This document shows positions 3,480 through 35,061 of a stretch of 36,078 nucleotides of DNA, piece by piece. Location: assembly GCA_017404065.1 (NCBI GenBank), contig JAFRDB010000049.1:1-36078 (forward strand), read 5' to 3'. A program made the translations under genes and the position numbers. This stretch comes from Clostridia bacterium. Lineage in GTDB: Bacteria; Bacillota; Clostridia; UBA1381. Below the pieces are notes generated by a model. It was not told the origin of the DNA and did no database searches. It saw only the letters and a program-made list of their open reading frames with translations. Each line of letters opens with the position of its first letter. Positions within the stretch are counted from its first letter, which is position 1.

Positions 3480-3485
3480 AACACT

Positions 3486-9132: not shown

Positions 9133-9190
9133 TTTGACAAAAACAAGCTCTAACGTACCATCGTACGCCGACGAGCTTGTTTTCGTCAAA
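9133..9190. repeat. 18-bp hairpin carrying the shared GTAC palindrome
   Basis: Positions 9133-9150 pair with 9173-9190 with one mismatch in 18. The loop contains the same ACGTACCATCGTACGCC (9153-9169) found at 8889-8905, itself a small hairpin. So one inner hairpin is reused inside two different outer stems. Confidence 0.65.
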
Positions 9191-19079: not shown

Positions 19080-19963
19080 TGGTTGGCTCAATGATAGGTA
19101 TAGTGTTATATCTTGTTTTTGCGCCCTTTGTCGGCGGACTGATCTCGGGTATCGACCGCAAGCTTACGGCGCGTATGCAGGGAAGAATAGGCCCTCCGCT
19201 GCTTCAGCCGTTCTATGATGTGCGCAAGCTTATAAACAAAGAGATACTTCTTATAAACAATATGCAGTTCCTGTTTGCGTGGTGCTTTGTGATCTTTATC
19301 GCGTTCACCGGCGCGCTGTTCTATGGCGGAGTAAATATACTTCTCGTTGTGTTTGTGCTTACGACCGCGGCAATGTTCCTTGTGCTGGAGGCGACAACAA
19401 CAAATTCGCCGTTCTCCGTAATGGGCGCTAACCGTGAGATGATGCAAATGCTCTCGTATGAGCCTATGGTACTGCTTACAGCTGTCGGCTTTTATGTGGC
19501 AACGGGCATTGGTCCGCATGACGGCACGTTTAATATATCTGAGATAATAACCCATTCCGATATACCGAATGTGGTATATCTGCCGGGCGTGTTCATCGGC
19601 TATTTATACATCCTCACGATAAAGCTCAGAAAATCGCCGTTTGATATCTCCATGTCGCATCACGCGCATCAGGAGATGGTAAAGGGTATTACAACCGAGC
19701 TGACCGGCGGTATGATGGCGCTTATCGAGATCTCGCACTGGTACGAGAACGTGTTCTTGTTGGGGCTTGTTGCGCTGTTCATACTCTGTTCAAAGTGGTG
19801 GAGCATACCGCTTGCGCTTATCGTATGCGCCGCAGCGTTTTTCCTGGAGGTGCTTATCGATAATACAAGCGCGCGTGTGAAGTGGGATCTGATGCTTAAA
19901 TCTGCATGGATAATAACGCTTGTATTCGGTGCGATAAATATATTTATCCTACAGATGTTTTAA
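19079..19963 (+). CDS. echB: Ech-type hydrogenase membrane subunit B (NuoH-like)
   Basis: EchB links the soluble hydrogenase arm to the membrane pump. The 294-residue product has about 8 hydrophobic helices and NuoH/HyfC motifs: the loop TARMQGRIGPPLLQPFYDV with its conserved Arg and Gly-Pro, then ATTTNSPFSVMGANREM and TELTGGMMALIEISHW. It begins at the ATG at 19079, which overlaps the echA stop by one base, with GGGAGG 9 bases upstream; the longer open frame overlaps echA and is not used. echC follows after a short gap. Confidence 0.93.
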   Translation: MVGSMIGIVLYLVFAPFVGGLISGIDRKLTARMQGRIGPPLLQPFYDVRKLINKEILLINNMQFLFAWCFVIFIAFTGALFYGGVNILLVVFVLTTAAMFLVLEATTTNSPFSVMGANREMMQMLSYEPMVLLTAVGFYVATGIGPHDGTFNISEIITHSDIPNVVYLPGVFIGYLYILTIKLRKSPFDISMSHHAHQEMVKGITTELTGGMMALIEISHWYENVFLLGLVALFILCSKWWSIPLALIVCAAAFFLEVLIDNTSARVKWDLMLKSAWIITLVFGAINIFILQMF

Positions 19964-19978
19964 TTGGAGGGTACAGAT

Positions 19979-20422
19979 ATGGCAACAAAGGTAGCAAAAT
20001 CGCCGTGGCTGCTGCATTATGACGGTTCAAGCTGTAACGGCTGCGATATTGAGGTGCTCGCGTGCCTCACTCCGATATATGATGTGGAGAGGTTCGGAAT
20101 AATAAACACAGGTAATCCAAAGCATGCTGATATACTGCTTATAACCGGCGGTATAAACACACAGAATAAGGCGGTGGTAGAGCAGCTTTATTCGCAGATG
20201 CCGGAGCCGAAGGTGGTATGCGCGGTAGGTATATGCGCCTGCAACGGCGGCGTGTTCAAGGAATGCTATAATATTATCGGCGGAGTGGACAAGGTGATAC
20301 CGGTGGATGTATATGTTCCCGGCTGCGCGGCTCGTCCGAACGCTATAATAGACGGTGTTGTAAAGGCGTTGGGTGTGCTTGAGGAAAAACGAAAAAATAT
20401 GAAGGGAGGCGCGGCAGAATGA
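19979..20422 (+). CDS. echC: Ech-type hydrogenase small subunit C (NuoB-like)
   Basis: EchC carries the proximal [4Fe-4S] cluster that takes electrons to or from the Ni-Fe site. The 147-residue protein is a short NuoB-type small subunit. Its four cysteine ligands are visible in CNGCD, AVGICACNGG and VPGCAARPNA. It lacks the long extra cluster domain and twin-arginine signal of uptake hydrogenases, as expected for a cytoplasmic group 4 enzyme. The ATG at 19979 has TTGGAGG 8 bases upstream. Its end overlaps the start of echD by 4 bases (ATGA). Confidence 0.94.
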   Translation: MATKVAKSPWLLHYDGSSCNGCDIEVLACLTPIYDVERFGIINTGNPKHADILLITGGINTQNKAVVEQLYSQMPEPKVVCAVGICACNGGVFKECYNIIGGVDKVIPVDVYVPGCAARPNAIIDGVVKALGVLEEKRKNMKGGAAE

Positions 20423-20778
20423 GAGAGGATTATGTTCTTGTAGACCTTGCTCCGGATATGCTCACATTAAAGGCTGTAAAGGCGAAGAATAATAATGCGC
20501 GTCTTGTGCAGATATGTGCGGTCAACACACCGGACGGGTATGATCTTCTGTATTCGTTCGCTGTGGATTATCATTTCGTAAACTATCGCATACCGGTAAA
20601 GAAGGGTGATCAGATAGTGAGTATATCCGATATATATCCGCCCGCTTCGCTTTATGAGAATGAGATGAGGGAGCTGTTTGGCGTAGATATACAGTTTATT
20701 AAGCTAAACTATAATGACAGGCTCTATACTATAGATGAAACAACACCGTTCAGACCCGAAGCAAAGGAGGAAAAGTAA
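20419..20778 (+). CDS. echD: Ech-type hydrogenase subunit D (NuoC-like)
   Basis: EchD is a small structural subunit, homologous to NuoC (30-kDa complex I subunit), that joins the large and small subunits. The 119-residue product shows the family end segment SISDIYPPASLYENEMRELF, followed by the short GV(D/K)-type tail. It has no metal-binding motif. It overlaps echC by 4 bases and stops one base before the ATG of echE. Identity rests partly on gene order since the family is poorly conserved. Confidence 0.9.
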   Translation: MREDYVLVDLAPDMLTLKAVKAKNNNARLVQICAVNTPDGYDLLYSFAVDYHFVNYRIPVKKGDQIVSISDIYPPASLYENEMRELFGVDIQFIKLNYNDRLYTIDETTPFRPEAKEEK

Positions 20779-20779
20779 G

Positions 20780-21859
20780 ATGGCAAACAGATCGGTAGTG
20801 CCGTTCGGACCGCAGCATCCTGTGCTGCCGGAGCCGATACATCTTGACCTTGTGCTCGAGGATGAAAAGATAGTAGAGGCGATCCCCAAGATCGGCTATG
20901 TACACCGCGGACTGGAAAAGCTCGTGGAAAAACGCGATTTCAATGATTTTGTATATATAGCGGAGCGTACCTGCGGAATATGCTCGTTCATGCACGGCAT
21001 GGGTTATGTTGAGGCAATGGAGCGTATATTTGATGCGGAAATACCGCCGCGCGCGAAGTATCTGCGTACAATATGGTGTGAGATGTCAAGGATACATTCT
21101 CATCTGCTGTGGCTTGGTCTGCTTGCGGACGGGTTTGGATTTGAGGCGCTGTTCTATCAGTGCTGGCGTATGCGCGAGAAGGTCCTCGATATGTTCGAGG
21201 AGGCGACCGGCGGCAGAGTTATATTCTCAGTCAACAAAATCGGCGGCGTGTTAAAGGACATGCCCAAAGAGATGCTTGCAAAGTTTGTTCACAACTTCAA
21301 TGAGATCGAGAAGGAGCTTAAAGACCTTACAGAGGTATTCTTAACAGACTACTCGGTCGAATCGCGTCTCAGGGGTGTCGGTATTCTCACGCGCGATGAC
21401 GCGATAAGACTTGGCGCTGCCGGACCGATGATGCGCGCGAGCGGCATAAGTATAGATACAAGGTCTATTGGCTATGCGGCATACGAGGATATAGATTTTG
21501 ATATAGTCACAAGCAACGATTGTGACAGCTACGCCCGATGCGAGGTTCGCATAAAGGAGATATTCCAGTCGATAGAGATAATCCGCCAGGCTGTGGAGAA
21601 GATCCCGGGCGGCGAGATATCAATAGATATAAAAGGTAATCCGAAGGGCGAGGCGTTCACAAGGGTCGAGCAGCCGCGCGGCGAGGCTATATACTATTGC
21701 CGCGCAAACGGAACAAAGTTCTTAGAGAGGTTCCGTATCAGGACACCAACGTTTGCAAATCTTACGCCCATGCTGTATACGTTAAAGGGCGCGGAGCTTG
21801 CCGATGTGCCGCTTCTCATTCTTACGATCGATCCATGCATCAGCTGCACAGAGAGATAA
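20780..21859 (+). CDS. echE: Ech-type [NiFe]-hydrogenase large subunit E
   Basis: EchE holds the Ni-Fe active site that makes or oxidises H2. The 359-residue product has both Ni-ligand motifs: RTCGICSFMH near residue 57 and DPCISCTER at the very C-terminus. All four cysteines are present, so this is a hydrogenase and not a NuoD-type remnant. The protein ends after CTER, without the C-terminal extension that a maturation protease removes in most [NiFe]-hydrogenases; this is known for Ech of methanogens. The ATG at 20780 is preceded by AAAGGAGG about 8 bases upstream. The longer open frame overlaps echD. Confidence 0.95.
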   Translation: MANRSVVPFGPQHPVLPEPIHLDLVLEDEKIVEAIPKIGYVHRGLEKLVEKRDFNDFVYIAERTCGICSFMHGMGYVEAMERIFDAEIPPRAKYLRTIWCEMSRIHSHLLWLGLLADGFGFEALFYQCWRMREKVLDMFEEATGGRVIFSVNKIGGVLKDMPKEMLAKFVHNFNEIEKELKDLTEVFLTDYSVESRLRGVGILTRDDAIRLGAAGPMMRASGISIDTRSIGYAAYEDIDFDIVTSNDCDSYARCEVRIKEIFQSIEIIRQAVEKIPGGEISIDIKGNPKGEAFTRVEQPRGEAIYYCRANGTKFLERFRIRTPTFANLTPMLYTLKGAELADVPLLILTIDPCISCTER

Positions 21860-21873
21860 GGGGGTAGAGCGTT

Positions 21874-22311
21874 ATGGCATCAATAATGAAATTTACAAGC
21901 TTTGCTTTAAAGAACCTGTTCTCAAAGCCCGTAACAAAGAATTATCCGGCGGAGGAGCGGGAGTATCCTGCCCGCGCGCGCGGCAGTTTGCAATGCAAAA
22001 TAGAAGATTGTATATTCTGCGGCATGTGCCAGCGCAAATGCCCGTCGGGCGCGATAACGGTTGATCGCAAGGCGCGACAGTGGTCGATTGACCGCATGGG
22101 CTGTGTTCAATGCGAGAATTGTGTAAATCATTGCCCAAAGAGCTGTCTGAAAATGGATGTGCATTATTCGGAGCCGGACTACAATAAGGTGGTTACGACA
22201 CTTGAAGGTCCGCCGGTTGCGCCGAAGCCGGAGCTTACACCGGAGAAGATAGCGGAGCTGAAGGCGGCAGCGGCGGCGAAAAAGGCAGCGGCGGCAAAAG
22301 CGAAGGAATGA
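21874..22311 (+). CDS. echF: Ech-type hydrogenase ferredoxin-like subunit F
   Basis: EchF carries two [4Fe-4S] clusters and is thought to exchange electrons with soluble ferredoxin. The 145-residue product has two full motifs: CIFCGMCQRKCP and CVQCENCVNHCPK. An N-terminal segment (1-38) fits the NuoI-type arm, and the C-terminus is a run rich in Ala and Lys (about 125-145) that is probably flexible. AGGGGG stands about 10 bases before the ATG. The stop overlaps the hypF start by 4 bases, so hydrogenase and maturation genes are translationally coupled. Confidence 0.94.
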   Translation: MASIMKFTSFALKNLFSKPVTKNYPAEEREYPARARGSLQCKIEDCIFCGMCQRKCPSGAITVDRKARQWSIDRMGCVQCENCVNHCPKSCLKMDVHYSEPDYNKVVTTLEGPPVAPKPELTPEKIAELKAAAAAKKAAAAKAKE

Positions 22312-24458
22312 AAAAATACAGGGTAACCGGATTGGTACAGGGGATAGGCTTCCGCCCGTATGTGAAGCGGCTGGCGGACAGTCTTGGTATATCCGGAACA
22401 GTCAAAAACTGCGGAGGCTTTGTGGAAATAACGGCAAGTGGGGAACCGCTTGCCGAATTTTGCATGGGACTTGCTAAGCTTCCTTACGCTCTTATAGACA
22501 GAATTACAGAGGAAGATGTGATCGATAATGAAACAGACGGATTTCATATAATCGGAAGCGCTGACGGTGAGGGCGAGCCTCCTGTTATTCCGGCGGATAT
22601 TGCTGTGTGTGACAGCTGTATCAATGAGTTTAAGGATAAGAACAACCGTCGCTACAGACACCCGTTCATAAGCTGTACCGCTTGCGGGCCAAGGTATTCG
22701 ATAATTGAAGCGTTGCCATACGATCGCGAAAACACAGTAATGAAGGATTTTGAAATGTGCGACAGCTGCGCCGCGGAATATACCGATATAGGCAATATCC
22801 GCTGTCACGCTCAAACGGTGGCATGTAACGGCTGCGGGCCGCGGCTTAAATATACGCTTGGCGGTGATCCGCTCGATGCGGCTGTCAGGACAATAAAAAA
22901 CGGCGGCATCGTGGCGGTGAAAAACGTTGGCGGATACCACCTTGTATGTGATGCTGAAAATGAAACTGCGGCAGAGCGTCTGCGCGCAATAAAGGGACGT
23001 GAGACAAAGCCGTTCGCGGTAATGTTCGCAGCAGCCCGTAATGTTCGGGAGTACGCGGAGGTATCGGAGACGGAGGAAAGAATACTGCTCTCATCCGCAA
23101 GACCTATAGTGCTGCTTAAAAAGAAACGCGACTTTGCAAGATCCGTTTGCGGGTTGAGCGAATATATCGGCGCGTTCCTGCCGTCAGATCCGATCCAGTA
23201 TTACCTTGCGCACAAGTGCGGCGCAATAGTTATGACGAGCGCGAATATATCAGGCGAGCCGATAATAACCGATAATAAAAGCATAGATGAGCTGCGTCGC
23301 GAACGCGGCGGATTTGAAATACTCAGCCATGACCGGCGCATACTCACGCCGCTTGATGATTCTGTCTGCCGCGTCATTCGCGGCAGGATGCAGATGATAC
23401 GCCGCGCGAGGGGCTATGTGCCGCTGCCGATAGAGATAGACACGGCGCGGAATACGGCAGTGCTTGCGGCGGGCGGAGACCTCAAAGCCTCGTTTTGCCT
23501 TGCGTCCGAAGGAAGAGCATATATGAGCCAGTATTTTGGCGATCTGGAGGATGCGGAGACTTTGCGGCTCTGGAAGGAGAATATAGCGCGGCTAAGGGAC
23601 TTGCTTGGTATAAGTCCTGAGATTTATGTTTCGGATATGCACCCTCTGTATTTCAGTTCAGGGTATATCGGGGGAGAGCGGCTGCAGCACCATTTTGCTC
23701 ATTTTGCATCTGTTATGGCGGAGCATAGGCTCAGCGATCCCGCACTCGGATTTGTTTTTGACGGCACCGGGTATGGCGAGGACGGATGTGTATGGGGCGG
23801 TGAGGTGATATCATACGATACCGGCTTTAGAAGGGTTGGCGGGCTTTTGTACACAGAGCTTCCGGGCGGTGACGAGTCAGCGAAAAATTCCACGCTGATC
23901 AGCGATTGCTTTCTTATTGCTGCCGGACTTGAACCGCGCGGTGCGGACGGTGATCTTATCAAGTCAGTCCTTGACAATCACATAAATACCGTGCGTTCAT
24001 CAAGTATGGGGCGGCTGTTTGATGCAATATCGGCGCTTTTGGGTATTTGCGGATATAACACCTATGAAGGTGAGAGTGCGATAATGCTTGAGGCTGCCGC
24101 GGCGCGCGCAAAAAAGCCATATCCGCTGACGATTTGCATGAGAGACGGCAGATGGGATACCGCCGCTCTTATCCGTGATATTGCGGCGGCGTATGATCGC
24201 GGCGCGGAAGGAGACGAGCTTGCGCTCGGTTTTCACTCTGCGATAGCGGAGGCTGTGGCGGCTGCGGCGCGCCGATACGGAAAAAAGACGATCATATTAT
24301 CCGGCGGAGTGTTTATGAACCGGATACTCACCGAGCTGTGCTTCGATAAGCTTGCCGGTTTTGATGTATATATAAACGAACAGGTGCCGACCAATGACGG
24401 AGGGATCGCGTTGGGGCAAGCTTGGTATGCCTTAAATCCATGCGATGCGGCGGAATAA
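22308..24458 (+). CDS. hypF: Carbamoyltransferase HypF
   Basis: HypF makes the CN ligand precursor for [NiFe]-hydrogenase by transferring a carbamoyl group to HypE. The 716-residue product shows an N-terminal acylphosphatase domain (VQGIGFRPYV at 10-19), two zinc-finger-like CX2C repeats (CDSC/CTAC and CDSC/CNGC, about 102-180), a YrdC-like domain (about 190-370, TKPFAVMF and TSANISGEPI) and a C-terminal Kae1-like domain with HHFAHFASVMAEH, DGTGYGEDG and ILSGGVFMN. All domains are intact; length is slightly below the usual 750. The gene starts within the end of echF. Confidence 0.95.
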   Translation: MKKYRVTGLVQGIGFRPYVKRLADSLGISGTVKNCGGFVEITASGEPLAEFCMGLAKLPYALIDRITEEDVIDNETDGFHIIGSADGEGEPPVIPADIAVCDSCINEFKDKNNRRYRHPFISCTACGPRYSIIEALPYDRENTVMKDFEMCDSCAAEYTDIGNIRCHAQTVACNGCGPRLKYTLGGDPLDAAVRTIKNGGIVAVKNVGGYHLVCDAENETAAERLRAIKGRETKPFAVMFAAARNVREYAEVSETEERILLSSARPIVLLKKKRDFARSVCGLSEYIGAFLPSDPIQYYLAHKCGAIVMTSANISGEPIITDNKSIDELRRERGGFEILSHDRRILTPLDDSVCRVIRGRMQMIRRARGYVPLPIEIDTARNTAVLAAGGDLKASFCLASEGRAYMSQYFGDLEDAETLRLWKENIARLRDLLGISPEIYVSDMHPLYFSSGYIGGERLQHHFAHFASVMAEHRLSDPALGFVFDGTGYGEDGCVWGGEVISYDTGFRRVGGLLYTELPGGDESAKNSTLISDCFLIAAGLEPRGADGDLIKSVLDNHINTVRSSSMGRLFDAISALLGICGYNTYEGESAIMLEAAAARAKKPYPLTICMRDGRWDTAALIRDIAAAYDRGAEGDELALGFHSAIAEAVAAAARRYGKKTIILSGGVFMNRILTELCFDKLAGFDVYINEQVPTNDGGIALGQAWYALNPCDAAE

Positions 24459-24499
24459 TTATGATGTGTTTATTTGTTATATAAGGGAGTGGATATAAA

Positions 24500-24721
24500 A
24501 TGTGTGTTGCGGCACCGGGACGAGTGATAGGAATAAAAAACAATATTGCGAGGATAGATTATAACGGCAACTGTGTTGACGCTAACGCCGGACTGGTTGA
24601 GGTGAAGGCGGGTGACTATGTGCTTGTCCACGCGGGGATGATAATACAGCGGCTCAATGAGAATGAGGCGCGTGAAATGACAGAGCTGTTCAAAACTCTG
24701 GAGGAGCTTGGCGATGCCTGA
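24500..24721 (+). CDS. hypC: Hydrogenase maturation chaperone HypC
   Basis: HypC binds HypD and the large subunit, carrying the Fe(CN)2CO unit. The 73-residue protein begins MCVAAPG, equivalent to the conserved MCLAIP, with the essential Cys2. It keeps the small beta-barrel pattern (VDANAGLVEVKAGDYVLVHAG) and ends in a helix. AAGGGAG lies 10 bases before the ATG. It overlaps hypD by 8 bases. Confidence 0.95.
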   Translation: MCVAAPGRVIGIKNNIARIDYNGNCVDANAGLVEVKAGDYVLVHAGMIIQRLNENEAREMTELFKTLEELGDA

Positions 24722-25748
24722 TTTAGACGGGATAAAACGGTATTTGAGAGAATATGACGGTGAGAGCAAAATCATAATGGAGGTTTGCGGCACGCATACC
24801 GCGTCTGTTTCCGAGAACGGGATAGCGGATATGCTTTCGCCGAAAATAAAGCTGATATCCGGCCCCGGCTGTCCGGTTTGCGTTACTGTCGCGGCATATA
24901 TAGACAGACTGATCGAGCTTGCGATGGAGGAGAACACAACGGTAATTTCCTTCGGAGATATGCTGCGCGTTACCGGATCCCGGCTGTCGCTGCGTGATGC
25001 CGCGGCGGTGGGCGGAAGCGTTAAGATAGTGTATTCTCCGTTTGAGGCGATCAGCCTTGCAAAGGCGTCACCGGAGCGAAGATTTGTGTTTGCGGCGGTT
25101 GGGTTTGAGACGACAACGCCGATATATGCGCTTATGTCGGAGCAGATAATAAATGAAGATATAAAGAATTTGCTGCTGCTGACAGCTCTCAAGACTATGC
25201 CTGCCGCGATACGCGCGGTTTCCGGCGCGAATATTACCGGATTTCTTGCGCCGGGTCATGTCGGTGTAATAACCGGACACAGGCTTTTTGAGGAGCTTGC
25301 AAGGGAGCTTGGCAAGCCGTTTGTTACGGCAGGCTTCAAGGGGGAGGAGCTGCTTGCCGCGATATACGCGCTTACAAAGCTAAAGAGCGGCGCGGCGCTT
25401 AACCTTTATCCCTCTGCGGTAACATACGAGGGCAATGTCAGGGCGAGGGAGATAACAAACAAGTATTTTGAGCCGTGTCGGGCGGCGTGGCGCGGACTGG
25501 GCATAATAGACGGTTCAGGCATGAAGCTGCGCGATGAATACAGTTTCCTTGACATCGGCAGCTCCGGACTTGTGAATGACAGCGTAAAGGATAAGGGCTG
25601 CCGTTGCGGCGATGTCATAACCGGAAGGATAAGTCCGCGCGGATGTCCGCTGTTCGGACGCGTGTGCACTCCGGATACGCCCTGCGGCGCGTGTATGGTC
25701 TCGACAGAGGGCAGCTGCTTCCATTATTATATAAACGGGAGAGTGTAG
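24714..25748 (+). CDS. hypD: Hydrogenase maturation Fe-S protein HypD
   Basis: HypD is the scaffold where Fe receives its CN and CO ligands, together with HypC. The 344-residue product has the conserved active-site segments EVCGTHT and GPGCPVCVT. The C-terminal cysteines of the [4Fe-4S] cluster are in CRCGDV, GCPLFGRVC and CGACMVSTEGSC. I take the ATG at 24714, with GAGGAG 7 bases upstream, over a TTG two codons earlier. Not to be confused with the hydroxyproline dehydratase that shares the gene name. Confidence 0.96.
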   Translation: MPDLDGIKRYLREYDGESKIIMEVCGTHTASVSENGIADMLSPKIKLISGPGCPVCVTVAAYIDRLIELAMEENTTVISFGDMLRVTGSRLSLRDAAAVGGSVKIVYSPFEAISLAKASPERRFVFAAVGFETTTPIYALMSEQIINEDIKNLLLLTALKTMPAAIRAVSGANITGFLAPGHVGVITGHRLFEELARELGKPFVTAGFKGEELLAAIYALTKLKSGAALNLYPSAVTYEGNVRAREITNKYFEPCRAAWRGLGIIDGSGMKLRDEYSFLDIGSSGLVNDSVKDKGCRCGDVITGRISPRGCPLFGRVCTPDTPCGACMVSTEGSCFHYYINGRV

Positions 25749-25757
25749 AAGAACGAT

Positions 25758-26738
25758 ATGAAGATAACAATGGCACATGGCAGCGGCGGAAGGGCAACGT
25801 CGCAGCTTATAAACGATGTTTTTAAAAACGCAAACTCAAATCCTGTCCTTGACATGATGGAGGATGCGGCTGTTGTTGCCGGCAGCGGCAGAATAGCAGT
25901 CACCACTGACAGCTTTGTTATTACGCCGCTGTTTTTTAAGGGAGGCGATATCGGCAGACTTGCGGTTTGCGGAACGGTAAATGATCTTCTTATGCGCGGC
26001 GCCATCCCTAAATATATAACGAGCGCTTATATCATCGAAGAGGGTGCGGACACAGACGATCTGCGGCGTATTGCCGAGTCTATGGCGGAAACGGCGCGCG
26101 AGGCGGGAGTTATTGTTGTCGCGGGTGACACAAAGGTAACGGAGGGCAGCGGAAATGTGTATATAAACACGACCGGTGTTGGCTTTGTGCCGGAGGACAC
26201 AGATATAAAAAGCTCCGACTGCAAACTGGGAGACGCGCTTATAGTCTCCGGCGATCTTGGCGAGCATCATGCGGCGATAATGAGCCGGAGGATGGGGATA
26301 GAAAACAATATAAAAAGCGATTGCGCACCGCTCGGCGAGATGGTAATGAATATGATAGATGCCGGTATAGAGCTGCACGCTATGCGCGATATCACGCGCG
26401 GCGGTCTCGGTACTGTTTTAAACGAGCTTGCGTCCGCGTCGGGATGCGGCTTTGAGCTGAATGAAGCGGATATCCCCGTAACGCCTGAGGTGGAGGGCTT
26501 TGCAAGGATACTCGGTCTTAATATCATGCACATGGGTAATGAAGGCAAGCTTGCGGCAGTGGTTGCGGAGCGCGATGCGGAGCGGGCGCTCGGTATAATA
26601 AAAAACAGCCGCTACGGAGCGGCTGCTGCGATCATCGGAAGAGTAACCGGCGGCGAAGGTGTAGTTATGAACACACGCCTCGGCGGAAAACGAGTTATAA
26701 CAGAGCTTTTCGGCGAGGGCTTGCCAAGGATCTGCTAA
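25758..26738 (+). CDS. hypE: Hydrogenase maturation dehydratase HypE
   Basis: HypE converts the carbamoyl group received from HypF into a thiocyanate at its C-terminal cysteine with ATP. The 326-residue protein starts with MAHGSGGRAT, has the PurM-like ATP-binding fold (DAAVV, GDTKVTEG, MRDITRGGLG) and ends in the required PRIC with Cys326 last. Its stop codon overlaps the stop codon of the convergent hypA by 4 bases in all. Codons around 26606-26625 form a hairpin that acts as terminator for the opposite strand (see separate entry). Confidence 0.96.
   Translation: MKITMAHGSGGRATSQLINDVFKNANSNPVLDMMEDAAVVAGSGRIAVTTDSFVITPLFFKGGDIGRLAVCGTVNDLLMRGAIPKYITSAYIIEEGADTDDLRRIAESMAETAREAGVIVVAGDTKVTEGSGNVYINTTGVGFVPEDTDIKSSDCKLGDALIVSGDLGEHHAAIMSRRMGIENNIKSDCAPLGEMVMNMIDAGIELHAMRDITRGGLGTVLNELASASGCGFELNEADIPVTPEVEGFARILGLNIMHMGNEGKLAAVVAERDAERALGIIKNSRYGAAAAIIGRVTGGEGVVMNTRLGGKRVITELFGEGLPRIC
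26600..26625 (-). terminator. Intrinsic terminator of hypBA, embedded in hypE
   Basis: A perfect 8-bp GC-rich stem (CAGCCGCT at 26606-26613 with AGCGGCTG at 26618-26625, loop of 4) is followed on the minus strand by six T (26605-26600). It lies about 110 bases past the hypA stop codon and inside the hypE reading frame. On the plus strand there is no T-run after it, so it should not stop hypE transcription. Confidence 0.8.
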
Positions 26739-27079
26739 TCATCAATATCAATACTCTCAACAAGAAACTCCTTGCCGGAAACTATTGTGAGCTTTTGCGA
26801 TCCGCAATGGTCACAGCGGAAACGAAAGCGTATAAGATGCGTTTCACCTCCGCAGTCAAGGCATTTTGCAATGGCTGGTATCCGCTTGAATACAAGCGCG
26901 GCACCGTGTGCTATTGTGTTCTCGCTTACAATATCAAAATATTCCTGAATATACTGAGGAACACACCCGGTCATTTCGCCGAGTGTGATCTTTATTTTAT
27001 TTACCTTTTTTGCGCCCTCATGTTCTGCGGTTTCAAGCGCGATATTTAAGATGCTCTGGGTTATGGAAAGCTCATGCAT
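26735..27079 (-). CDS. hypA: Hydrogenase nickel-insertion protein HypA
   Basis: HypA delivers Ni to the hydrogenase large subunit together with HypB. The 114-residue protein begins MHELSIT, where His2 and the N-terminus bind Ni. It has two zinc-binding CX2C pairs, CLDCGG and CDHCGS. Length fits the family (113-118). It overlaps hypB by 8 bases upstream and the hypE stop by 4 bases tail to tail. Confidence 0.96.
   Translation of the reverse strand: MHELSITQSILNIALETAEHEGAKKVNKIKITLGEMTGCVPQYIQEYFDIVSENTIAHGAALVFKRIPAIAKCLDCGGETHLIRFRFRCDHCGSQKLTIVSGKEFLVESIDIDD
26962..26998 (+). terminator. Possible terminator of the ech-hyp operon, inside hypA
   Basis: Positions 26962-26970 pair with 26979-26987 with one mismatch in 9, followed by ATCTTTATTTTAT on the plus strand. 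It lies about 225 bases past the hypE stop, antisense to hypA. The T-tract is interrupted, so this is weak. No better plus-strand terminator was found between hypE and the promoters near 27800. Confidence 0.35.
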
Positions 27080-27731
27080 TTATTTTTTCCTCTATCCTGC
27101 TCCTGAGCCACGCGTTGAAGCTGTTGAGTCCGTCGCCGCTCTTGTTTGATACGTTAAATATGCTTATATCGGGATTTATCGCTTGCGCGTTTTGCGTTAC
27201 TCTTAACTCGTCAAAGTCAAAATAGCTTATCATGTCGTATTTATTTAAAACAAGCGCATCTGTTGTCCGGAACATCAGCGGATATTTTTCAACCTTGTCA
27301 TCGCCCTCAGGTATGCTTAAAAGAGCGATACGGATGTCCTCGCCAATATTGAACTCGGCAGGACAGACAAGATTTCCGATGTTTTCGACAAAGATAACAT
27401 CGAGCTTGTCAAGGTCAAAGTCCGGCAGGATGTGCTGTATTGACATTGCCTCTATATGGCACGCGCCGTCAGTGTTGAGCTGTACTACCGGCACACCCAG
27501 CGCCTTCATTTTCTCAGCGTCGATCGCTCCCGCTATATCTCCTTCGATAACGCCTATCGAAAGCGTTTCCGACAGCTGTTTTATAACGGAAGTTATAAGA
27601 GAGGTCTTGCCTGCGCCCGGCGAGCCCATGACATTTACAAGGCAAACCCTCTTTTCTGTTAATTTCTTTTTTACCTCATCGGATACGTCCTCGTTCCATT
27701 CCATTATCTGATGAACCACCTTGATTTCCAT
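27072..27731 (-). CDS. hypB: Hydrogenase nickel-insertion GTPase HypB
   Basis: HypB is the GTPase that drives Ni insertion with HypA. The 219-residue product has the P-loop GSPGAGKTS, the metal site segment DGACHIEA, FVENIGNLVCPAEF and NKYD for guanine recognition. The N-terminal Cys/His-rich Ni-storage region seen in some relatives is missing. I take the ATG at 27731 with AAAGGAG about 8 bases upstream over the GTG three codons earlier. Confidence 0.96.
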   Translation of the reverse strand: MEIKVVHQIMEWNEDVSDEVKKKLTEKRVCLVNVMGSPGAGKTSLITSVIKQLSETLSIGVIEGDIAGAIDAEKMKALGVPVVQLNTDGACHIEAMSIQHILPDFDLDKLDVIFVENIGNLVCPAEFNIGEDIRIALLSIPEGDDKVEKYPLMFRTTDALVLNKYDMISYFDFDELRVTQNAQAINPDISIFNVSNKSGDGLNSFNAWLRSRIEEKINA

Positions 27732-27752
27732 ATATACCACTCCTTTAGCACC

Positions 27753-27781
27753 ATTATATCACAAATTGACGGATCATGCAA
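27753..27781 (-). promoter_or_regulatory. Sigma-A promoter of hypBA
   Basis: On the minus strand a perfect TATAAT (27758-27753) with TGA extension lies 17 bases from a weak -35 box TTGCAT (27781-27776). The poor -35 box suggests that the extended -10 carries much of the strength. Confidence 0.7.
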
Positions 27782-27802
27782 GACAAAAAAGAGCTTAAAA
27801 CA

Positions 27803-27831
27803 TTGACAACGAATTATTTGTGTGGTAAAAT
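27803..27831 (+). promoter_or_regulatory. Sigma-A promoter of the gdpP-rplI-dnaB cluster
   Basis: TTGACA (27803-27808) and TAAAAT (27826-27831) are 17 bases apart with TGG before the -10 box. It is divergent from the hypBA promoter with about 21 bases between the two -35 boxes. Confidence 0.85.
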
Positions 27832-27875
27832 ATTATAGGGGTTGTATCTGATAATAATTATCAGGAGGTAATAGT

Positions 27876-28178
27876 ATGAATATTTCCGGCAATCTCAAGG
27901 CGATTGACAGTATCAAGGCGGAGATTTTATCCGAAGTAGCAAATCTTTACAGGCTGCTTGCTGATTATGATGAGCTTGCTGATTACGGCAATGTGGAAAG
28001 CTCTATCGCCACCATTGTGGCTATGGACTACATACTTGCCATGCATTTAGGCATAACTTGCTCTACAATCGACAGTCGGATATGCGAGCTGCTTAAGCTG
28101 GCTGAGGAAAACGGACATTCGCTTGAAACGGATTTTGGCGATATGTCTGAGCTACATAAGTATATAAAGAAAAGATAA
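27876..28178 (+). CDS. MazG-like family protein
   Basis: This 100-residue, mainly helical protein matches the pattern of the small MazG-like proteins often found just before gdpP in Clostridia. The shared pattern is NLKAIDSIKAEILSEVANLY at the start, a middle helix with LAMHLGI, and a C-terminal segment like HSLETDFGDMSELHKYIK. The acidic EXXE metal-binding signature of true MazG pyrophosphohydrolases is not evident, so catalytic activity is doubtful. AGGAGG lies 8 bases before the ATG. It is the first gene after the promoter at 27803. The family call comes from memory of the pattern; function unknown. Confidence 0.6.
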   Translation: MNISGNLKAIDSIKAEILSEVANLYRLLADYDELADYGNVESSIATIVAMDYILAMHLGITCSTIDSRICELLKLAEENGHSLETDFGDMSELHKYIKKR

Positions 28179-28200
28179 TAAGGTATTAAAGGTCATAACT

Positions 28201-30201
28201 ATGGAGAAAAAATACAGGATGCCTGCCGAGAATATATTTTATGCGGCGGCTGCGGGAGGCGCGGCGCTCATAATAACAGCGATGATATTTGCTGTTATGG
28301 GTATGTATATTGCGGCTGTCGCCGAGCTTACGGTTGGTGTGGGAGTAACGGCATACGCTTATTTGCAGATACGTAAAGATAAGAAGAAGAAAAAAGGATA
28401 TCTGAACACCGTAAGTGAAAGCTTATCTGAGATCTCCGAGGCGAATCTTGACAGTGTGCCCATCGCACTTGCAATTTGCTCGGTGGACGGCGTAATACGG
28501 TGGCACAATGATCTGTTCCGAGAGATGGTCGGAGGCAGAGAGCTTTATGGCGAGATGCTCGAGAATTATATACAGGAGCTGAAATGGGCGAATGTTCTGA
28601 AATTCCCTAAGGGTAATACTATGCAGAGCAGGATAGGGGAGAAAGTTTTTTCTCTTACCTGGCGCATGATAAAGGATGCGCGATCTGAAACGGAGAAGTA
28701 TTCTGTATATTTTTATTTCAGAGATATCACGGCTGAAACACAGCTTATGGCTGCTTATAATAACGAGCGCATTGATGTGGCGATGATCAATATCGATAAT
28801 TATGATGACTTCCTCCAACGCGTTGATGATGATACGGTGGAGGAGGCTGCATCGAAGATGAGAGGCGTGATCGCGGCGTGGTCGCGCGAGTCTGACGCTG
28901 TCCTTAAAAAGACTGACCGCGACAGGTATTTTGCCGCGTTTGAGCATCAGTATCTTGACGGTTATATCAAAAAGGATTTTGACATAATAAAAAAGATTAC
29001 GGATGTCGCAAAGGAGTTCAAGTTCCCGCTTTCGATCAGTATCGGTATAGGTACGGGCGGAAGTATGTATGAAAATGAAAAAAGCGCGAGAAACGCGCTT
29101 GATCTTGCTCTCGGCAGAGGCGGAGGTCAGGTTTGCATCAAGGATGATATGCAATTCAAATTTTACGGCGGCAAGAGCGTGGATTACGAACGCAGCTCGC
29201 GCGTTAAAGCGCGCGCGGTCGCGTCAGCACTCTCAGAGCTGATAAGCGACAGCGACAACGTAATATTTATGGGCCATGCATCGGCGGATTTCGACTGCTT
29301 TGGCGCTGCTGTCGGTTTGCAGCGGGCAGTGCGCGTGCTCGGCAAAACTCCGTATATCATCCATGACGATATATCACCCGCGATAGACAATATGTATGCT
29401 GCCCTGGAAAAAACCGAGGAATACAGAGGAATGTTCGTAAACGGAGCGGAGGCAGCGGAGCGTGTAAGCGAAAATACGCTTCTTGTTGTGCTTGACACAC
29501 ATCGGCCGATAATGCTGCCGTGTCCGGAGCTGTTAGACCGCATTGCAAAGGTCGTGCTCATAGATCACCACAGACGTTCGACGGATTTTATAAGCCCTTG
29601 CTCGCTGATTTACCATGAGCCGTATGCTTCCTCTACCTGTGAGATGGTAACGGAGCTTCTGGAGTACATGAACGCAAGCGGGGAACTGACAAAGCTTGAA
29701 GCGGAATGTGTTTACAGCGGAATAATCCTTGACACAAAGAATTTCATGCTAAAGACAGGTGTGCGTACCTTTGAAGCGGCATCATATCTGAGACGGATGG
29801 GGCTTGATACCGTTGCGGTAAAGCGTATGTTTTCGATCGGCAAGGCTGAATATGCGATGAAGTCTGACATAGTAAAGTCCGCAAGGACAGTCGCCGGCGA
29901 GATAGCAGTAGCAAACACGTATACTTCATCCAAAAATATGCGGCAGATTGCTTCACAGGCAGCGGATGATATGCTCAATATCACTAATGTCATAGCATCC
30001 GTAGTCGTATATCCGGCTGACGGAGGTACAGGCTTCAGTGCAAGATCTATAGGCACGATAAATGTCCAGCTGATAATGGAAAAGCTCGGCGGCGGCGGAC
30101 ACTTGACCGTTGCGGGCGCGTTCATACGCGGTATAGGTGTGGATGAAGGCGTCAAACGTGCCGAGGAAGCGATAAGGTCATACGTAGAAGATACGAAATA
30201 G
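28201..30201 (+). CDS. gdpP: Cyclic-di-AMP phosphodiesterase GdpP
   Basis: GdpP degrades the second messenger c-di-AMP at the membrane. The 666-residue product has two N-terminal hydrophobic helices (about 10-56), a PAS domain (about 75-175), a degenerate GGDEF domain (about 190-305, without a clear GGDEF) and a C-terminal DHH/DHHA1 phosphodiesterase (about 335-660). The catalytic motifs are intact: MGHASADFD, VLDTHRP, LIDHHRR and GGGGH. Length fits the family (about 650-660). AAAGG lies 8 bases before the ATG. gdpP followed by rplI and dnaB is a conserved Firmicute order. Confidence 0.94.
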   Translation: MEKKYRMPAENIFYAAAAGGAALIITAMIFAVMGMYIAAVAELTVGVGVTAYAYLQIRKDKKKKKGYLNTVSESLSEISEANLDSVPIALAICSVDGVIRWHNDLFREMVGGRELYGEMLENYIQELKWANVLKFPKGNTMQSRIGEKVFSLTWRMIKDARSETEKYSVYFYFRDITAETQLMAAYNNERIDVAMINIDNYDDFLQRVDDDTVEEAASKMRGVIAAWSRESDAVLKKTDRDRYFAAFEHQYLDGYIKKDFDIIKKITDVAKEFKFPLSISIGIGTGGSMYENEKSARNALDLALGRGGGQVCIKDDMQFKFYGGKSVDYERSSRVKARAVASALSELISDSDNVIFMGHASADFDCFGAAVGLQRAVRVLGKTPYIIHDDISPAIDNMYAALEKTEEYRGMFVNGAEAAERVSENTLLVVLDTHRPIMLPCPELLDRIAKVVLIDHHRRSTDFISPCSLIYHEPYASSTCEMVTELLEYMNASGELTKLEAECVYSGIILDTKNFMLKTGVRTFEAASYLRRMGLDTVAVKRMFSIGKAEYAMKSDIVKSARTVAGEIAVANTYTSSKNMRQIASQAADDMLNITNVIASVVVYPADGGTGFSARSIGTINVQLIMEKLGGGGHLTVAGAFIRGIGVDEGVKRAEEAIRSYVEDTK

Positions 30202-30213
30202 AGGAGGAGAACA

Positions 30214-30663
30214 ATGCAGGTAATACTTACACAAGACGTAAAGGGACAGGGAAAAAAAGGACAGATGGTGAAGGTTTCAGACGGCTATGCGCGGAATTTT
30301 CTGCTGCCCAAGGGCCTCGCAAAAGAGGCAACAAAGGAAAACATAAATGTATTAAAGGGAAAGCGCGAGTCGCTTGAATATAAGGTCAGGACAGAGACCG
30401 CGGAGGCAGAGGCTATTGCAGAGCGCATGAAGAGCATCGAGCTTATTATCAAGTCAAAGTCGGGCGATAACGGCAAGCTGTTCGGTTCGGTCACATCTAA
30501 GGATGTTGCCGACGCGCTGACCGCGCAGGAGCATATAAAGCTTGATAAGAAAAAGTTTGTTATGCCTGATGGCGGCATCAAGACTCTCGGCACGACAACC
30601 TTAAAGGTGAAGCTGTATGCGGGAGTTACGGGCGAGCTGAAGGTAACGGTAGAGAAAGCATAA
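30214..30663 (+). CDS. rplI: Ribosomal protein bL9
   Basis: The 149-residue protein has the two-domain L9 form: the N-terminal rRNA-binding domain with VKGQGKKGQMVKVSDGYARNFL-type signature (about 9-30), a long connecting helix, and a C-terminal domain (about 75-149). AGAGGAGGAG is just upstream of the ATG. It lies 12 bases after gdpP. Confidence 0.97.
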   Translation: MQVILTQDVKGQGKKGQMVKVSDGYARNFLLPKGLAKEATKENINVLKGKRESLEYKVRTETAEAEAIAERMKSIELIIKSKSGDNGKLFGSVTSKDVADALTAQEHIKLDKKKFVMPDGGIKTLGTTTLKVKLYAGVTGELKVTVEKA

Positions 30664-30688
30664 GATAAAAATAAGGAGTTAACGGTTT

Positions 30689-32062
30689 ATGGATGAAGAA
30701 AACAGCTTGTCGCTTGCGGAGCTGAATGCACAAAGCGTGGCGGAGCGTGATCTTCCTTTCAATATGGAAGCTGAGCAGGCTGTTTTGGGCAGTATGCTCA
30801 CAGACCAGTCGAGCGTTTCCGATGCAGCGGAGCTTTTGCTGCCGGAGGATTTCTATTTTTCGGCGAACCGATTCATTTATGATGCGATCCTTGATCTTTT
30901 CAATGACAATAAGGCGATAGATTTCGTAACCGTATCGGAGCAACTGAAGATAAGCGGACGTCTGGACGCGGTAGGCGGGATAGACTACCTTAAAAGGATA
31001 TCCATGAGCGTTCCCACAACGCAGCATGTCAGATACTATTCAAAGATAATCAAGGAAAAATCTATACTTCGCAAACTAATAAAGAGCGCCGGTGAAATTT
31101 CGGAAATGGCATATAGCGAGGATGACAGCCTCGCGCGGATGCTTGAACGCTCAGAGCAGATAATATTTGATATTTCCGCTTCGCGCGAGCAGAGCGATAT
31201 AGTACATATAGGCGACATTCTACAGGCGAGCTATGAGCTTATCGCAAAGAACGCGGAAGCCGGCACCGGACTTACGGGACTTGACACGGGCTTTGGAGAG
31301 CTTAACAAGAACACAGGTGGTTTCCATGCCGGAGAGCTTATAATCATAGCCGGACGTCCGGGTATGGGTAAGAGCACGTTTGCCGTAAATATTGCCGAGC
31401 ATATAAGTATAGGCATGGATAAGCCGGTCGCGATATTCAATCTTGAGATGCCCAAGGAGCAGGTGGTGAACAGAATAATCTGTTCGCAGGCGCTAATCGA
31501 TAATTCAAATATACAGACCGGAAATATGCAGAAGGACGACTGGACAAAGATCATAGAGGTTGCCGACGATATTGCAAAGGCGCCTCTGTATATTGACGAT
31601 ACGCCGACTATCACCGTGTCACAGATACGCGCAAAGTGCCGCAGACTGAAGCAGACAAGCGGTCTTTCGGCTGTAGTGATAGATTATCTTCAGCTTATGC
31701 AGGGCAGCGGCAGAAGTGAAAATCGTCAGCAGGAAATTGCGGAGATATCACGTTCGCTTAAAGTGCTGGCAAAGGAGCTTGATATACCTGTTATCGCGCT
31801 GTCGCAGCTACGCCGTGAGAGTGAGAGACAGAAGGGCGGAAGACCGGCACTGTCCGACCTCAGAGAGTCGGGTGCGATAGAGCAGGATGCCGACCTTGTA
31901 ATGTTCCTGTTCAGGAACTATTACTACAGCAAGGATCCTGAGGAGAAGTATCTTGCTGAATGTATAATCGCTAAAAATCGTAACGGAGCCACAACGGATT
32001 TTAAGCTTGGTTTCCGCGGCGAGTACTCAAAGTTTCAGAATTTAGAGTATAGAGAGGAATGA
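30689..32062 (+). CDS. dnaB: Replicative DNA helicase
   Basis: DnaB (DnaC in Bacillus) is the hexameric helicase of the replication fork. The 457-residue product has the N-terminal helical domain (NMEAEQAVLGSML, about 25-37) and a RecA-like C-terminal domain. Walker A is GRPGMGKST, Walker B is VVIDYLQLM, then ALSQLRRESE and the end segment AKNRNGATTDFKLGF. No intein or extra domain is present. AAGGAG stands upstream of the ATG at 30689. Confidence 0.97.
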   Translation: MDEENSLSLAELNAQSVAERDLPFNMEAEQAVLGSMLTDQSSVSDAAELLLPEDFYFSANRFIYDAILDLFNDNKAIDFVTVSEQLKISGRLDAVGGIDYLKRISMSVPTTQHVRYYSKIIKEKSILRKLIKSAGEISEMAYSEDDSLARMLERSEQIIFDISASREQSDIVHIGDILQASYELIAKNAEAGTGLTGLDTGFGELNKNTGGFHAGELIIIAGRPGMGKSTFAVNIAEHISIGMDKPVAIFNLEMPKEQVVNRIICSQALIDNSNIQTGNMQKDDWTKIIEVADDIAKAPLYIDDTPTITVSQIRAKCRRLKQTSGLSAVVIDYLQLMQGSGRSENRQQEIAEISRSLKVLAKELDIPVIALSQLRRESERQKGGRPALSDLRESGAIEQDADLVMFLFRNYYYSKDPEEKYLAECIIAKNRNGATTDFKLGFRGEYSKFQNLEYREE

Positions 32063-32066
32063 TTTT

Positions 32067-32573
32067 ATGGCATCGGATAATGAAATAATGGTTCTCATTT
32101 ATGAGACGGTACAGAAGCAGCTCAATCAGATAAAGGATTCGCGCGTTATGATACAGTCGCTCGCAAACAGAACGGCTGAGATGGAAAGCGCGGTCAAGGC
32201 TATCAGTGAGGAGACGCAGGCGGTAACGATGCGGCTTGCAGCGCTTGAGGAGAGTGTGGCGGCGCTTACGGATAAGACCGTTACGAGTGTTGACAGAGTT
32301 AATGATACCGACGATAAGCTTCGCAGTACTGTTGACGCAATGCGTAACACCATTGATAAAGTGACAAATCCGAGCATATCGCTTATCAGCAGTAACAACA
32401 GCGCTATGAAGGAGTCTGTACGGGAGCTTGCCGGCGCGCACCGTGATATAATGGACAGGTTCGAGGGTTACGAGATACGGATGCTAAAGCTTGAGGACAA
32501 CATAGATAAGCTATTTAAAAGACAGGTGCTGATAGCCCAGCCTGAACCGAAGCAGGAGTCGGAAGATGAATAA
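32067..32573 (+). CDS. Coiled-coil protein of unknown function
   Basis: I do not recognise this 168-residue protein. It has no hydrophobic helix and no cysteine. Most of it (about 15-150) shows heptad spacing of hydrophobic residues with many Glu, Lys and Asp, so an elongated coiled coil is likely. The end is acidic. GAGAGGA lies 8 bases before the ATG, within the end of dnaB, and the gene overlaps folB-folK by 8 bases. Its place between dnaB and folate genes does not reveal a role. Confidence 0.75.
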   Translation: MASDNEIMVLIYETVQKQLNQIKDSRVMIQSLANRTAEMESAVKAISEETQAVTMRLAALEESVAALTDKTVTSVDRVNDTDDKLRSTVDAMRNTIDKVTNPSISLISSNNSAMKESVRELAGAHRDIMDRFEGYEIRMLKLEDNIDKLFKRQVLIAQPEPKQESEDE

Positions 32574-33384
32574 TGACCGTATAGTTATAAATGATCTTGT
32601 TGTGTTTGCAAATCACGGGGTCATGAAGGAAGAAAAGACAATGGGTCAGAAGTTCATGGTCTCGCTATCGCTGTACGGTGACATGAGCCGCGCGGCGGAA
32701 ACAGACGACATCGCGCACGCGCTCAATTATGCCGAGGTGTGCGCTTTTGTTACGGAGTTTACAAAAAATAATCGTTGCAGGCTTATAGAGACGGCAGCGG
32801 AGAATATTGCAAATGCGCTGCTTGTCGCGTATCCGATCCTTGAGAGAGTCGATATAACACTAAAAAAGCCATGGGCGCCGATAGGACTTCCGCTCGACAG
32901 TGTAGCGGTAGCTTTGACGCGGCGAAGAAGTGTTGCTTATATTGGTCTTGGTTCAAATATGGGTGATAAAAAGGGGTATCTCGACCGCGCGATAAAGGCG
33001 ATCGAGGAGAGCGGAGTGTGCCGTGTTCTGAAAGTGTCGGAGTACATATTGACAAAGCCGGTGGGAGATGTGGAGCAGGATGATTTTCTCAATGCCTGCG
33101 CCAAGATAGATACCGTACTGCCGCCTCAGACGCTGCTGCGGCTCCTGCATGATATAGAAAATCAGGCGGGACGCGTAAGAACGGTTCGCTGGGGTCCGCG
33201 CACGCTTGATCTGGATATACTTCTTTTTGATGATGTGATCATGGATACGCCGGAGCTGACCCTGCCGCATCCGGAGCTGGTAAAACGTGAGTTCGCGCTT
33301 GCTCCTCTTGCAGAGATCGCGCCCTATGCGTATCATCCGGTAGCGCGCGAGTATGCGGTAAATTTATTGGAGAGATTGAGATGA
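32566..33384 (+). CDS. folB-folK: Fused dihydroneopterin aldolase/HPPK
   Basis: This 272-residue protein joins two consecutive steps of folate synthesis. Residues 1-118 are dihydroneopterin aldolase, with FANHGVMKEEK, the active-site NYAEVC Tyr and the LKKPWAP Lys. Residues 122-272 are 6-hydroxymethyl-dihydropterin pyrophosphokinase, with YIGLGSNMGDK and the signature RWGPRTLDLDILLFDD. Such fusions are common in Firmicutes. The gene overlaps the coiled-coil gene by 8 bases and the following gene by 4. folP, folC and folA are not in the window; folE is at 8134. Confidence 0.94.
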   Translation: MNNDRIVINDLVVFANHGVMKEEKTMGQKFMVSLSLYGDMSRAAETDDIAHALNYAEVCAFVTEFTKNNRCRLIETAAENIANALLVAYPILERVDITLKKPWAPIGLPLDSVAVALTRRRSVAYIGLGSNMGDKKGYLDRAIKAIEESGVCRVLKVSEYILTKPVGDVEQDDFLNACAKIDTVLPPQTLLRLLHDIENQAGRVRTVRWGPRTLDLDILLFDDVIMDTPELTLPHPELVKREFALAPLAEIAPYAYHPVAREYAVNLLERLR

Positions 33385-34361
33385 TAGTTCCGGATTACTA
33401 TGAACGTTTCAGATGTATAGGAGGCGAGTGCCGTCACAACTGCTGTCGGGGCGGATGGGATATAGAGGTCGATGACGAGGCTCTTGAGCGGTTTAAAAGA
33501 ATAGAAGGCGAGTTCGGAGAACGGGTTCGCGCTGCGGTAAATGATGAGAAGGTTTTTATCCGCAAGAACGGACAGTGTCCGTTGTTAAACAGTAACGGAC
33601 TTTGCGAGATGGTACTGCATGGAGAGGAGCTGTGTATTATCTGTGACGAGTTCCCGCGGTTTACGGAGTTCTACGAGGATTATTCCGAGCGCGGCGTTTC
33701 GCTTGCCTGCGAGGCGGCGAACGTACTTATATTAGATAATACAAACAAGGTTTGCCTTCAAGGAGAAGTGATCGGGTGCGATGAGCCGATCTTTGTATTT
33801 GTAAATAAAACACGAAACGCTGTTTTTGAGATACTGCAAAACAGGGAATATGATATATTTAAACGGCTGCGCCTTGCGCTTGATTATTCTTATGCGGCGC
33901 AGGTTATGATAAACGACAATGATTACGGCGAGCTTGATTATACTCCGAAGGATACGGCGGAAGGACACGAGAGCCTTGCGCCGTTTGTCGGGCTTTTGCT
34001 GTCCCTTGAGATCCTTGAGGATGACTGGAGAGGGCTGCTAAGCAAACTGCTTACTCGCGAGAAAAGCGTGCCCGGGCATATAGCGGATGATATAAAGGGC
34101 GAGCAGCTTGCCGTATACTTTGTGTACCGATATTTTCTTAAAGGCGCGTTCGACTGCGATGTGCTTTCAAAGATGAAGCTTGTCGCTCTCAGCGTTATGA
34201 CGATAATTGCGCTTGAAAATACCATAGGAGATATATGTGAGTGCGCGAGACGGTATTCGATAGAGGTTGAGCATGATGAGGATAATATAGAAGCGATATA
34301 TGATGAGCTTTTGTTTGGAGAACAGCTTTTATATGATGATATACTGAGGATGACAGGTTAA
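33381..34361 (+). CDS. FliB-like (YkgJ-type) cysteine-cluster protein
   Basis: The 326-residue product matches proteins named flagellin lysine-N-methylase (FliB). The N-terminal half has the family's cysteine pattern (CRHNCCRGGWD, CPLLNSNGLC, ELCIICDEFPRF, SLACE), which probably binds a metal or Fe-S cluster. The C-terminal half is helical and less conserved. There are no flagellar genes in this window, and this branch is widespread in non-flagellated Clostridia, so the substrate may be another protein. It overlaps folB-folK by 4 bases (ATGA). The name FliB should be used with care. Confidence 0.75.
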   Translation: MIVPDYYERFRCIGGECRHNCCRGGWDIEVDDEALERFKRIEGEFGERVRAAVNDEKVFIRKNGQCPLLNSNGLCEMVLHGEELCIICDEFPRFTEFYEDYSERGVSLACEAANVLILDNTNKVCLQGEVIGCDEPIFVFVNKTRNAVFEILQNREYDIFKRLRLALDYSYAAQVMINDNDYGELDYTPKDTAEGHESLAPFVGLLLSLEILEDDWRGLLSKLLTREKSVPGHIADDIKGEQLAVYFVYRYFLKGAFDCDVLSKMKLVALSVMTIIALENTIGDICECARRYSIEVEHDEDNIEAIYDELLFGEQLLYDDILRMTG

Positions 34362-34376
34362 AGGAGATGTATATAC

Positions 34377-35051: not shown

Positions 35052-35061
35052 GGTATCGGCG

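Follow-up and report, generated by a model that had tools for sequence, protein, structure and literature searches.

A candidate intrinsic terminator of the hypBA unit within the convergent hypE gene of a Clostridia bacterium

Results

Convergent hydrogenase maturation genes with overlapping stop codons

The window analysed here, 36,078 nucleotides long, is one whole contig (C2) of a 3.06-Mb draft genome that comprises 148 contigs. In the collection of species genomes the named relatives are mostly metagenome-assembled Clostridia, several of them from rumen or gut. On the plus strand, the genes hypF, hypD and hypE follow each other in this order, and the genes upstream of hypF read like hydrogenase subunits when judged by eye. 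The last gene of this series, hypE, occupies positions 25758-26738 and encodes a protein of 326 amino acids, with its TAA stop codon at 26736-26738 (NCBIfam TIGR02124, 389.3 bits, cut-off 251.6). Two genes on the minus strand, hypB and hypA, converge on it. The gene hypA (26735-27079) encodes 114 amino acids and ends with a TAG stop codon at 26737-26735 (TIGR00100, 93.5 bits, cut-off 88.1). Its start is overlapped by hypB (27072-27731), which encodes 219 amino acids when read from the ATG at 27731, or 222 from an alternative in-frame GTG at 27740; the match to TIGR00073 (243.1 bits, cut-off 121.2) was obtained with the version that starts at 27740. A candidate extended -10 promoter element, TGATATAAT, was seen by eye on the minus strand at 27753-27761, and is absent from the list of sigma-70 matches; a promoter belonging to hypBA itself is plausible on this basis. 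Past hypA, no gene was called on the minus strand before position 17020.

The first-pass annotation of this DNA had described hypE and hypA as convergent genes with overlapping stop codons and no spacer, and the letters bear this out. The two genes have the four nucleotides CTAA (26735-26738) in common on the two strands, and the TAA of hypE and the TAG of hypA share positions 26736-26737. Because the stop codons overlap, there is no spacer between the two genes.

A perfect hairpin followed by a T tract on the strand opposite hypE

The minus strand reads AGCAGCCGCTCCGTAGCGGCTGTTTTTT from 26627 to 26600. It consists of a left arm CAGCCGCT, a CCGT loop and a right arm AGCGGCTG, followed by TTTTTTATTATA. 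The core of the hairpin (26606-26625, minus strand) has eight perfect pairs, formed between 26606-26613 and 26618-26625, around the 4-nt loop, and a tract of six T (26600-26605) comes directly after the 8-bp stem. The perfect GC stem and the six T reported earlier are thus present, with all eight pairs formed. The fold of minimum energy pairs the first two T as well, one in a G-U and the next in an A-U pair, which extends the stem to 10 bp (26604-26627) and leaves four T. The energy of the 8-bp core is -13.2 kcal/mol, and -16.4 kcal/mol with the outer pairs; the RNA of the 37-nt site also folds at -16.4 kcal/mol, which none of 200 shuffles equalled (z = -3.9). The hairpin lies 109 nt beyond the hypA stop codon on the same strand, and it combines the usual features of an intrinsic terminator, namely a stable GC-rich hairpin, a U tract directly after the stem, and a position downstream of a gene on the same strand. 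Past the stem, the plus strand reads CTGCGATCATCGG (CTGCGATC). The hypE mRNA would have no U tract after the hairpin, so that the signal is confined to one strand.

Within hypE, the hairpin corresponds to Asn-Ser-Arg-Tyr-Gly-Ala-Ala (residues 283-289 in a protein of 326), and codon 290 contains the end of the stem. Its placement in the last codons of hypE, as first described, was inexact, as codons 283-290 lie about 36 codons ahead of the stop.

A search of the genome for the palindrome with up to one mismatch returned two matches, which are the same place read on the two strands. The palindrome is therefore unique in the genome, and a dispersed repeat or mobile element was rejected as its origin. 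A known RNA family was likewise rejected as the identity of the hairpin, since the sole Rfam match in the window at gathering thresholds is a T-box leader elsewhere. This leader (RF00230, 104.3 bits, gathering threshold 93) lies on the plus strand at 3485-3730, upstream of genes at 3976 and 5024, which, from their size, could be pheS and pheT.

Score of the site and odds against chance

Candidate sites were ranked by a score d that combines the hairpin energy per length with a weighted T tract, using a formula of the d'Aubenton Carafa type. The site within hypE has d = 35.9, the highest value on either strand of the window; the runner-up (d = 25.8) is intergenic. No plus-strand site with d of at least -30 appears at the hairpin in the d-score list of the window. 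A second terminator-like site antisense to hypE (26317-26331, minus strand), located about 290 nt further on, is weak (d = -4.0), and no site in the hypBA direction stronger than the main hairpin was found further along hypE. The third-ranking site of the window (29084-29098, minus strand, d = 19.5) is an antisense site that lies inside the gene at 28201-30201 and is not preceded by any minus-strand gene, which indicates that fair scores do arise by chance. Two other elements of the window carry terminator-like hairpins. One of these follows the T-box leader (3717-3750, d = 8.9), and the other is a palindrome, with tails like those of a terminator, in the gap that precedes the gene at 9438 (9144-9179; d = 3.9 on the minus strand and -21.2 on the plus strand).

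When the last 100 codons of hypE, stop included, were recoded with the codon usage of the genome sample, a value of d of at least 35.8 was reached anywhere in this segment in 5 of 10,000 trials. Shuffling the gene's own synonymous codons over the same segment gave such a value in 19 of 10,000 trials. Both odds are somewhat flattering because the site was picked from the whole window. The hypE antisense site exceeds chance. A simple terminator scan of 18000-36078 returned 20 sites compared with 16.1 (s.d. 4.7) in shuffles, so that weak matches there mean little, and the stronger d score was relied on instead.

Antisense sites are enriched past convergent stop codons

To set this site in context, the organism's own genome (G000) was sampled in 101 pieces that amount to 1.39 Mb of the 3.06 Mb and include the window. 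A home-made dicodon caller supplied the genes of this and the other genome samples; in L005 it overlooked a hypA that tblastn shows. Antisense terminator-like sites within genes are rare, and they are enriched within 300 nt past convergent stop codons. Outside the 300 nt that follow a same-strand stop codon, 1,123 kb of coding sequence in the G000 sample hold 60 antisense sites with d of at least 0, 16 with d of at least 10, and a single one with d of at least 30. Inside this zone (20.9 kb, hypE-hypA pair included), there are eight sites with d of at least 0 compared with 1.11 expected, and four with d of at least 10 compared with 0.30 expected. The hypE-hypA pair supplies two of the eight. 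Without it, six and three sites remain, with P values of 0.001 and 0.0035, respectively, from a Poisson calculation that treats sites as independent.

In 413 kb of the congener G001, five such near-stop sites with d of at least 0 compare with 0.63 expected, while the 320-kb sample of a second congener, G006, has one compared with 0.42 expected, which is not significant. This lone G006 site has a d of 33.7, and its host, a gene of 72 amino acids, has no Pfam match. Taken together, the three genomes without the hypE-hypA pair yield 12 sites compared with 2.18 expected at d of at least 0 (P = 3e-6), and six compared with 0.45 at d of at least 10 (P = 8e-6), again with sites treated as independent. 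Since the hypE-hypA pair was left out, this enrichment is free of the bias that comes from picking the site.

The enrichment is not specific to overlapping genes, because it is also seen in convergent pairs that are at least 300 nt apart (27.1 sites per 100 kb at d of at least 0). Pairs 60-300 nt apart have 26.5 sites per 100 kb, and pairs less than 60 nt apart have five sites in 12.3 kb (40.7 per 100 kb), including the two of hypE-hypA. The 3' ends of genes without a convergent neighbour served as a control and stayed at background, with 15 antisense sites of d of at least 0 (6.2 per 100 kb) over a total of 242.1 kb. Among pairs with no more than 15 nt between their stop codons in the G000 sample, 3 of 12 have an in-gene site with d of at least 0, in either direction, within 300 nt. 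Given this fraction and the lack of a special link to overlaps, an embedded site is one solution among several for ending such pairs.

Ten of the 12 near-stop sites outside the hypE-hypA pair were checked for Pfam matches of their host genes, leaving aside two with small or low-scoring hosts (L088 and L160); matches were obtained for eight of the ten hosts, all except L161 and L168. In three cases the hairpin lies within the Pfam domain of its host and the stop codons overlap or are 1 nt apart. They comprise a HAD hydrolase gene facing an aquaporin-type gene (gap of 1 nt, d = 0.4), a histidine kinase gene facing an HTH_3 gene (overlap of 20 nt, d = 17.4) and, in G001, an AraC-family gene facing spoIIIAH, with an overlap of 4 nt as in hypE-hypA (d = 17.1; L155, 10165-10188, minus strand). 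The last of these sites is located about 160 nt past the spoIIIAH stop codon.

A separate observation concerns contig C7 of the same genome, where an in-gene antisense site on the plus strand (L095, 4837-4858) has a d of 34.7. It is the only antisense in-gene site with d of at least 30 in the G000 sample that lies at least 600 nt past any same-strand stop codon, and it may point to an antisense RNA that is missing from the annotation.

Relatives with the same gene order lack the stem

The genus comprises 16 genomes. A true hypE is present in six of them, and hypA lies tail to tail beside it in four. The 4-nt overlap is identical in G000, G009 and G005 (for the latter two based on tblastn and the letters), and G001 has a spacer of 78 nt. 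If the stem were maintained with this gene order, it should recur in these genomes. All eight pairs are formed in G000, six in G001, four in G005 and only two in G009, despite the identical overlap in the latter two; in the 21 relatives other than G001, the number ranges from zero to four. The expectation that relatives with the same gene order keep the stem was not borne out. Its loss in G009 and G005 refutes conservation, not function in this lineage. No further strains of the same species were found.

The relatives differ in what they have in place of the stem. A long hairpin lies in the spacer of G001; read in the hypE direction it has a d of 24.5, compared with -8.2 for the hypBA direction. 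Within the final 300 nt of the G001 hypE, no hypBA-direction site occurs. The best such site of G001 (d = 6.6) lies about 400 nt before the end of hypE, at the same place as the weak site at 26317-26331 described above. In G005 the only hypBA-direction hairpin in hypE (d = -5.6), 404 nt before the end, is also found at this place. The hypE hairpin of G009 is not the same one; it is situated 81 nt from the end of the gene and its T tract is poor (d = -2.3). As none of these three genomes has a strong hypBA-direction site near the stop codon, a strong hypBA terminator at this position is not a general need of the gene order.

A weak terminator-like site for the opposite transcript, that of hypE, lies inside hypA (26955-26994, plus strand, d = 1.1) in the codons for LGEMTGCVP. 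Its counterpart has a d of 17.8 in G005 and -20.1 in G009; in G001 the site is disrupted, with none at d of at least -25 there and the spacer hairpin instead. A reciprocal hypE terminator inside hypA is suggestive only, judging by these scores. This plus-strand hairpin inside hypA is also located at L061 821-846. Turnover offers the most economical reading of these comparisons, in that each lineage would have arrived at a stop of its own or would still lack one.

The stem depends in part on an unusual residue of HypE

The right arm of the stem is formed by the codons of Gly287-Ala288-Ala289-Ala290. Position 288 was compared in 22 related HypEs, one of them encoded by a partial gene that starts at residue 130 (L010); duplicates (L022, L023, L026, and L007, which equals L024), the other piece of the G005 gene (L021) and weak paralogues (L012-L020) were left out of this set. 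The residue is Glu in 17, Lys in three, Thr in one and Leu in one, and never Ala. Three solved HypEs, when aligned, have Lys, Glu and Lys at this position. The neighbouring residue 289 is Asn in 15 of the 22, Asp in four, Ala in two (G001 and G005) and Tyr in one. A Glu or Lys codon at 288 would place an A at its second base, and the C-G pair between 26620 and 26611 would be lost. This pair depends on the Ala288 codon, and the stem therefore rests partly on an amino-acid change and not on codon choice alone.

Discussion

We propose that the hairpin and T tract at 26600-26625 form a Rho-independent (intrinsic) terminator that serves the two genes of the hypBA unit from within the opposing hypE gene, a reading to which we assign a probability of roughly 75%. 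The terminator would lie inside hypE because hypE and hypA overlap at their stop codons. A polymerase leaving hypA on the minus strand would continue for about 110 nt into hypE, at which point the RNA hairpin would form with the U run behind it, and transcription would end near 26598. The predicted hypBA 3' UTR, delimited by the hypA stop codon and the T tract (26598-26734, minus strand), would measure about 137 nt and lie entirely antisense to hypE, opposite its last 46 codons; the transcript from the candidate promoter to this end would be about 1.15 kb long. The rest of hypE, as well as hypD and hypF, would thereby be spared antisense transcription. Any effect on hypE would be a further step, and regulation of this gene by the short overlap is not part of our proposal. 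The first-pass annotation had already proposed a hypBA terminator hidden in hypE. What stands of it is a strong signal in one direction at the expected place, of a kind that is enriched past convergent stop codons; the stem itself is lost in G009 and G005.

The same loss, in two congeners with an identical overlap, would also be compatible with a chance hairpin that arises from the coding of HypE, with hypBA ending by Rho, by polymerase collision or diffusely. The residues Ile-Ile-Lys-Asn give the A tract and Tyr-Gly-x-x-Ala-Ala favours GC palindromes, and four distant HypEs (L027, L028, L031 and L038), beside which the next gene called is one other than hypA, have weak hairpins in this position (d from -14.8 to 0.7). 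Two others without an adjacent hypA, L036 (d = 4.1) and L039 (d = 5.2), show weak antisense sites at other points of the final 300 nt, and the site at 29084-29098 reaches a d of 19.5 with no minus-strand gene ahead of it. Convergent genes without a defined, site-specific end have moreover been described in Rickettsia, in a report (PMC3027695) that we cite for this point. Such an origin is nevertheless unlikely in our view, as so few recodings of HypE reach the score, comparably strong antisense sites are almost absent away from stop codons in the G000 sample, and the hairpin sits where a terminator is expected. The stability of the GC hairpin, together with the additional weak site some 290 nt beyond it, could alternatively point to a structure that mainly shields the 3' end of the hypBA RNA, or of an antisense RNA generated by processing, from exonucleases, with the real stop further on. 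A T tract placed directly after the hairpin is, however, the arrangement of an intrinsic terminator, and hypE offers no stronger site downstream, which makes a mainly protective role highly improbable.

Two further functions of the stem were rejected and retain next to no probability. As a perfect palindrome on both strands, it might be taken for a bidirectional terminator common to both operons, but the U tract follows the stem on one strand only. A programmed -1 frameshift in hypE would be suggested by the heptamer A AAA AAC, which is in the right frame and is followed by the stem. The spacer of such signals is usually 5-9 nt, whereas here the stem starts at the last base of the heptamer, so that the ribosome would have unwound it by then. 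The shifted frame would furthermore run for 147 codons to a stop and drop the C-terminal PRIC motif, which ends the three solved HypEs in the alignment and the Cys of which is needed for HypE function.

The intrinsic terminator proposed for hypBA has much in common with known examples, namely a GC-rich perfect stem, a 4-nt loop, a T tract directly after it and a location downstream of the last stop codon of the unit. It differs in two respects, as it lies 109 nt past this stop codon, compared with 25-75 nt for most sites of the E. coli set in a Term-seq study (PMC12207403), and is embedded in the coding sequence of a gene on the other strand. Earlier work has already described termination sites within a convergent neighbour, and hypE/hypA would be a further example. 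They have been reported as often falling within the coding sequence of a neighbour (PMC7154746), and the classes of termination sites distinguished in Zymomonas include in-gene sites and sites between convergent genes (PMC7566282). Three predicted terminators of convergent pairs in Bacillus cereus were placed inside the second gene and set aside; terminator stems of this species are described in the same report as highly conserved between strains in general (PMC5381666). These cases are likewise in-gene, and the hypBA stem differs in not being conserved between species.

Overlapping 3' UTRs of convergent genes are reported to be widely distributed (PMC7821165), and 160 putative convergent excludons have been listed for Dickeya (PMC9239193). 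The present locus has the convergent gene geometry of such units and would share with them a 3' end that lies within, and antisense to, the neighbouring gene. In contrast to an excludon, hypE and hypA serve one pathway and not opposing functions, and the hypBA end would come from a strong terminator in the neighbour instead of from a missing terminator or read-through. As both units consist of hydrogenase maturation genes according to NCBIfam, opposing functions are unlikely, and we have not filed the locus as an excludon. In the literature searched, in which subscription journals were partly covered, we found no closer published case with the same arrangement or with hyp genes.

The interest of this locus comes mainly from the measured enrichment and from the amino-acid change that coincides with the stem. 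The signal may have driven the change at residue 288, or the change may have enabled the signal. A more far-reaching possibility, which we consider doubtful, is that a selected terminator on the opposite strand made HypE exchange a charged residue 288 for Ala, and that convergent genes of this genus repeatedly grow embedded terminators in either gene, in hypE here and in hypA in G005. Ala288 at the stem may serve as a testable case of an RNA signal that constrains a protein. If the terminator is real, the same bases would encode a segment of an enzyme and stop the opposing polymerase, and such ends would escape an annotation that confines its search for terminators to the gaps between genes. 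In compact genomes, transcription can end where two genes leave no room for a separate terminator, and close relatives would differ in the solution that they have adopted.
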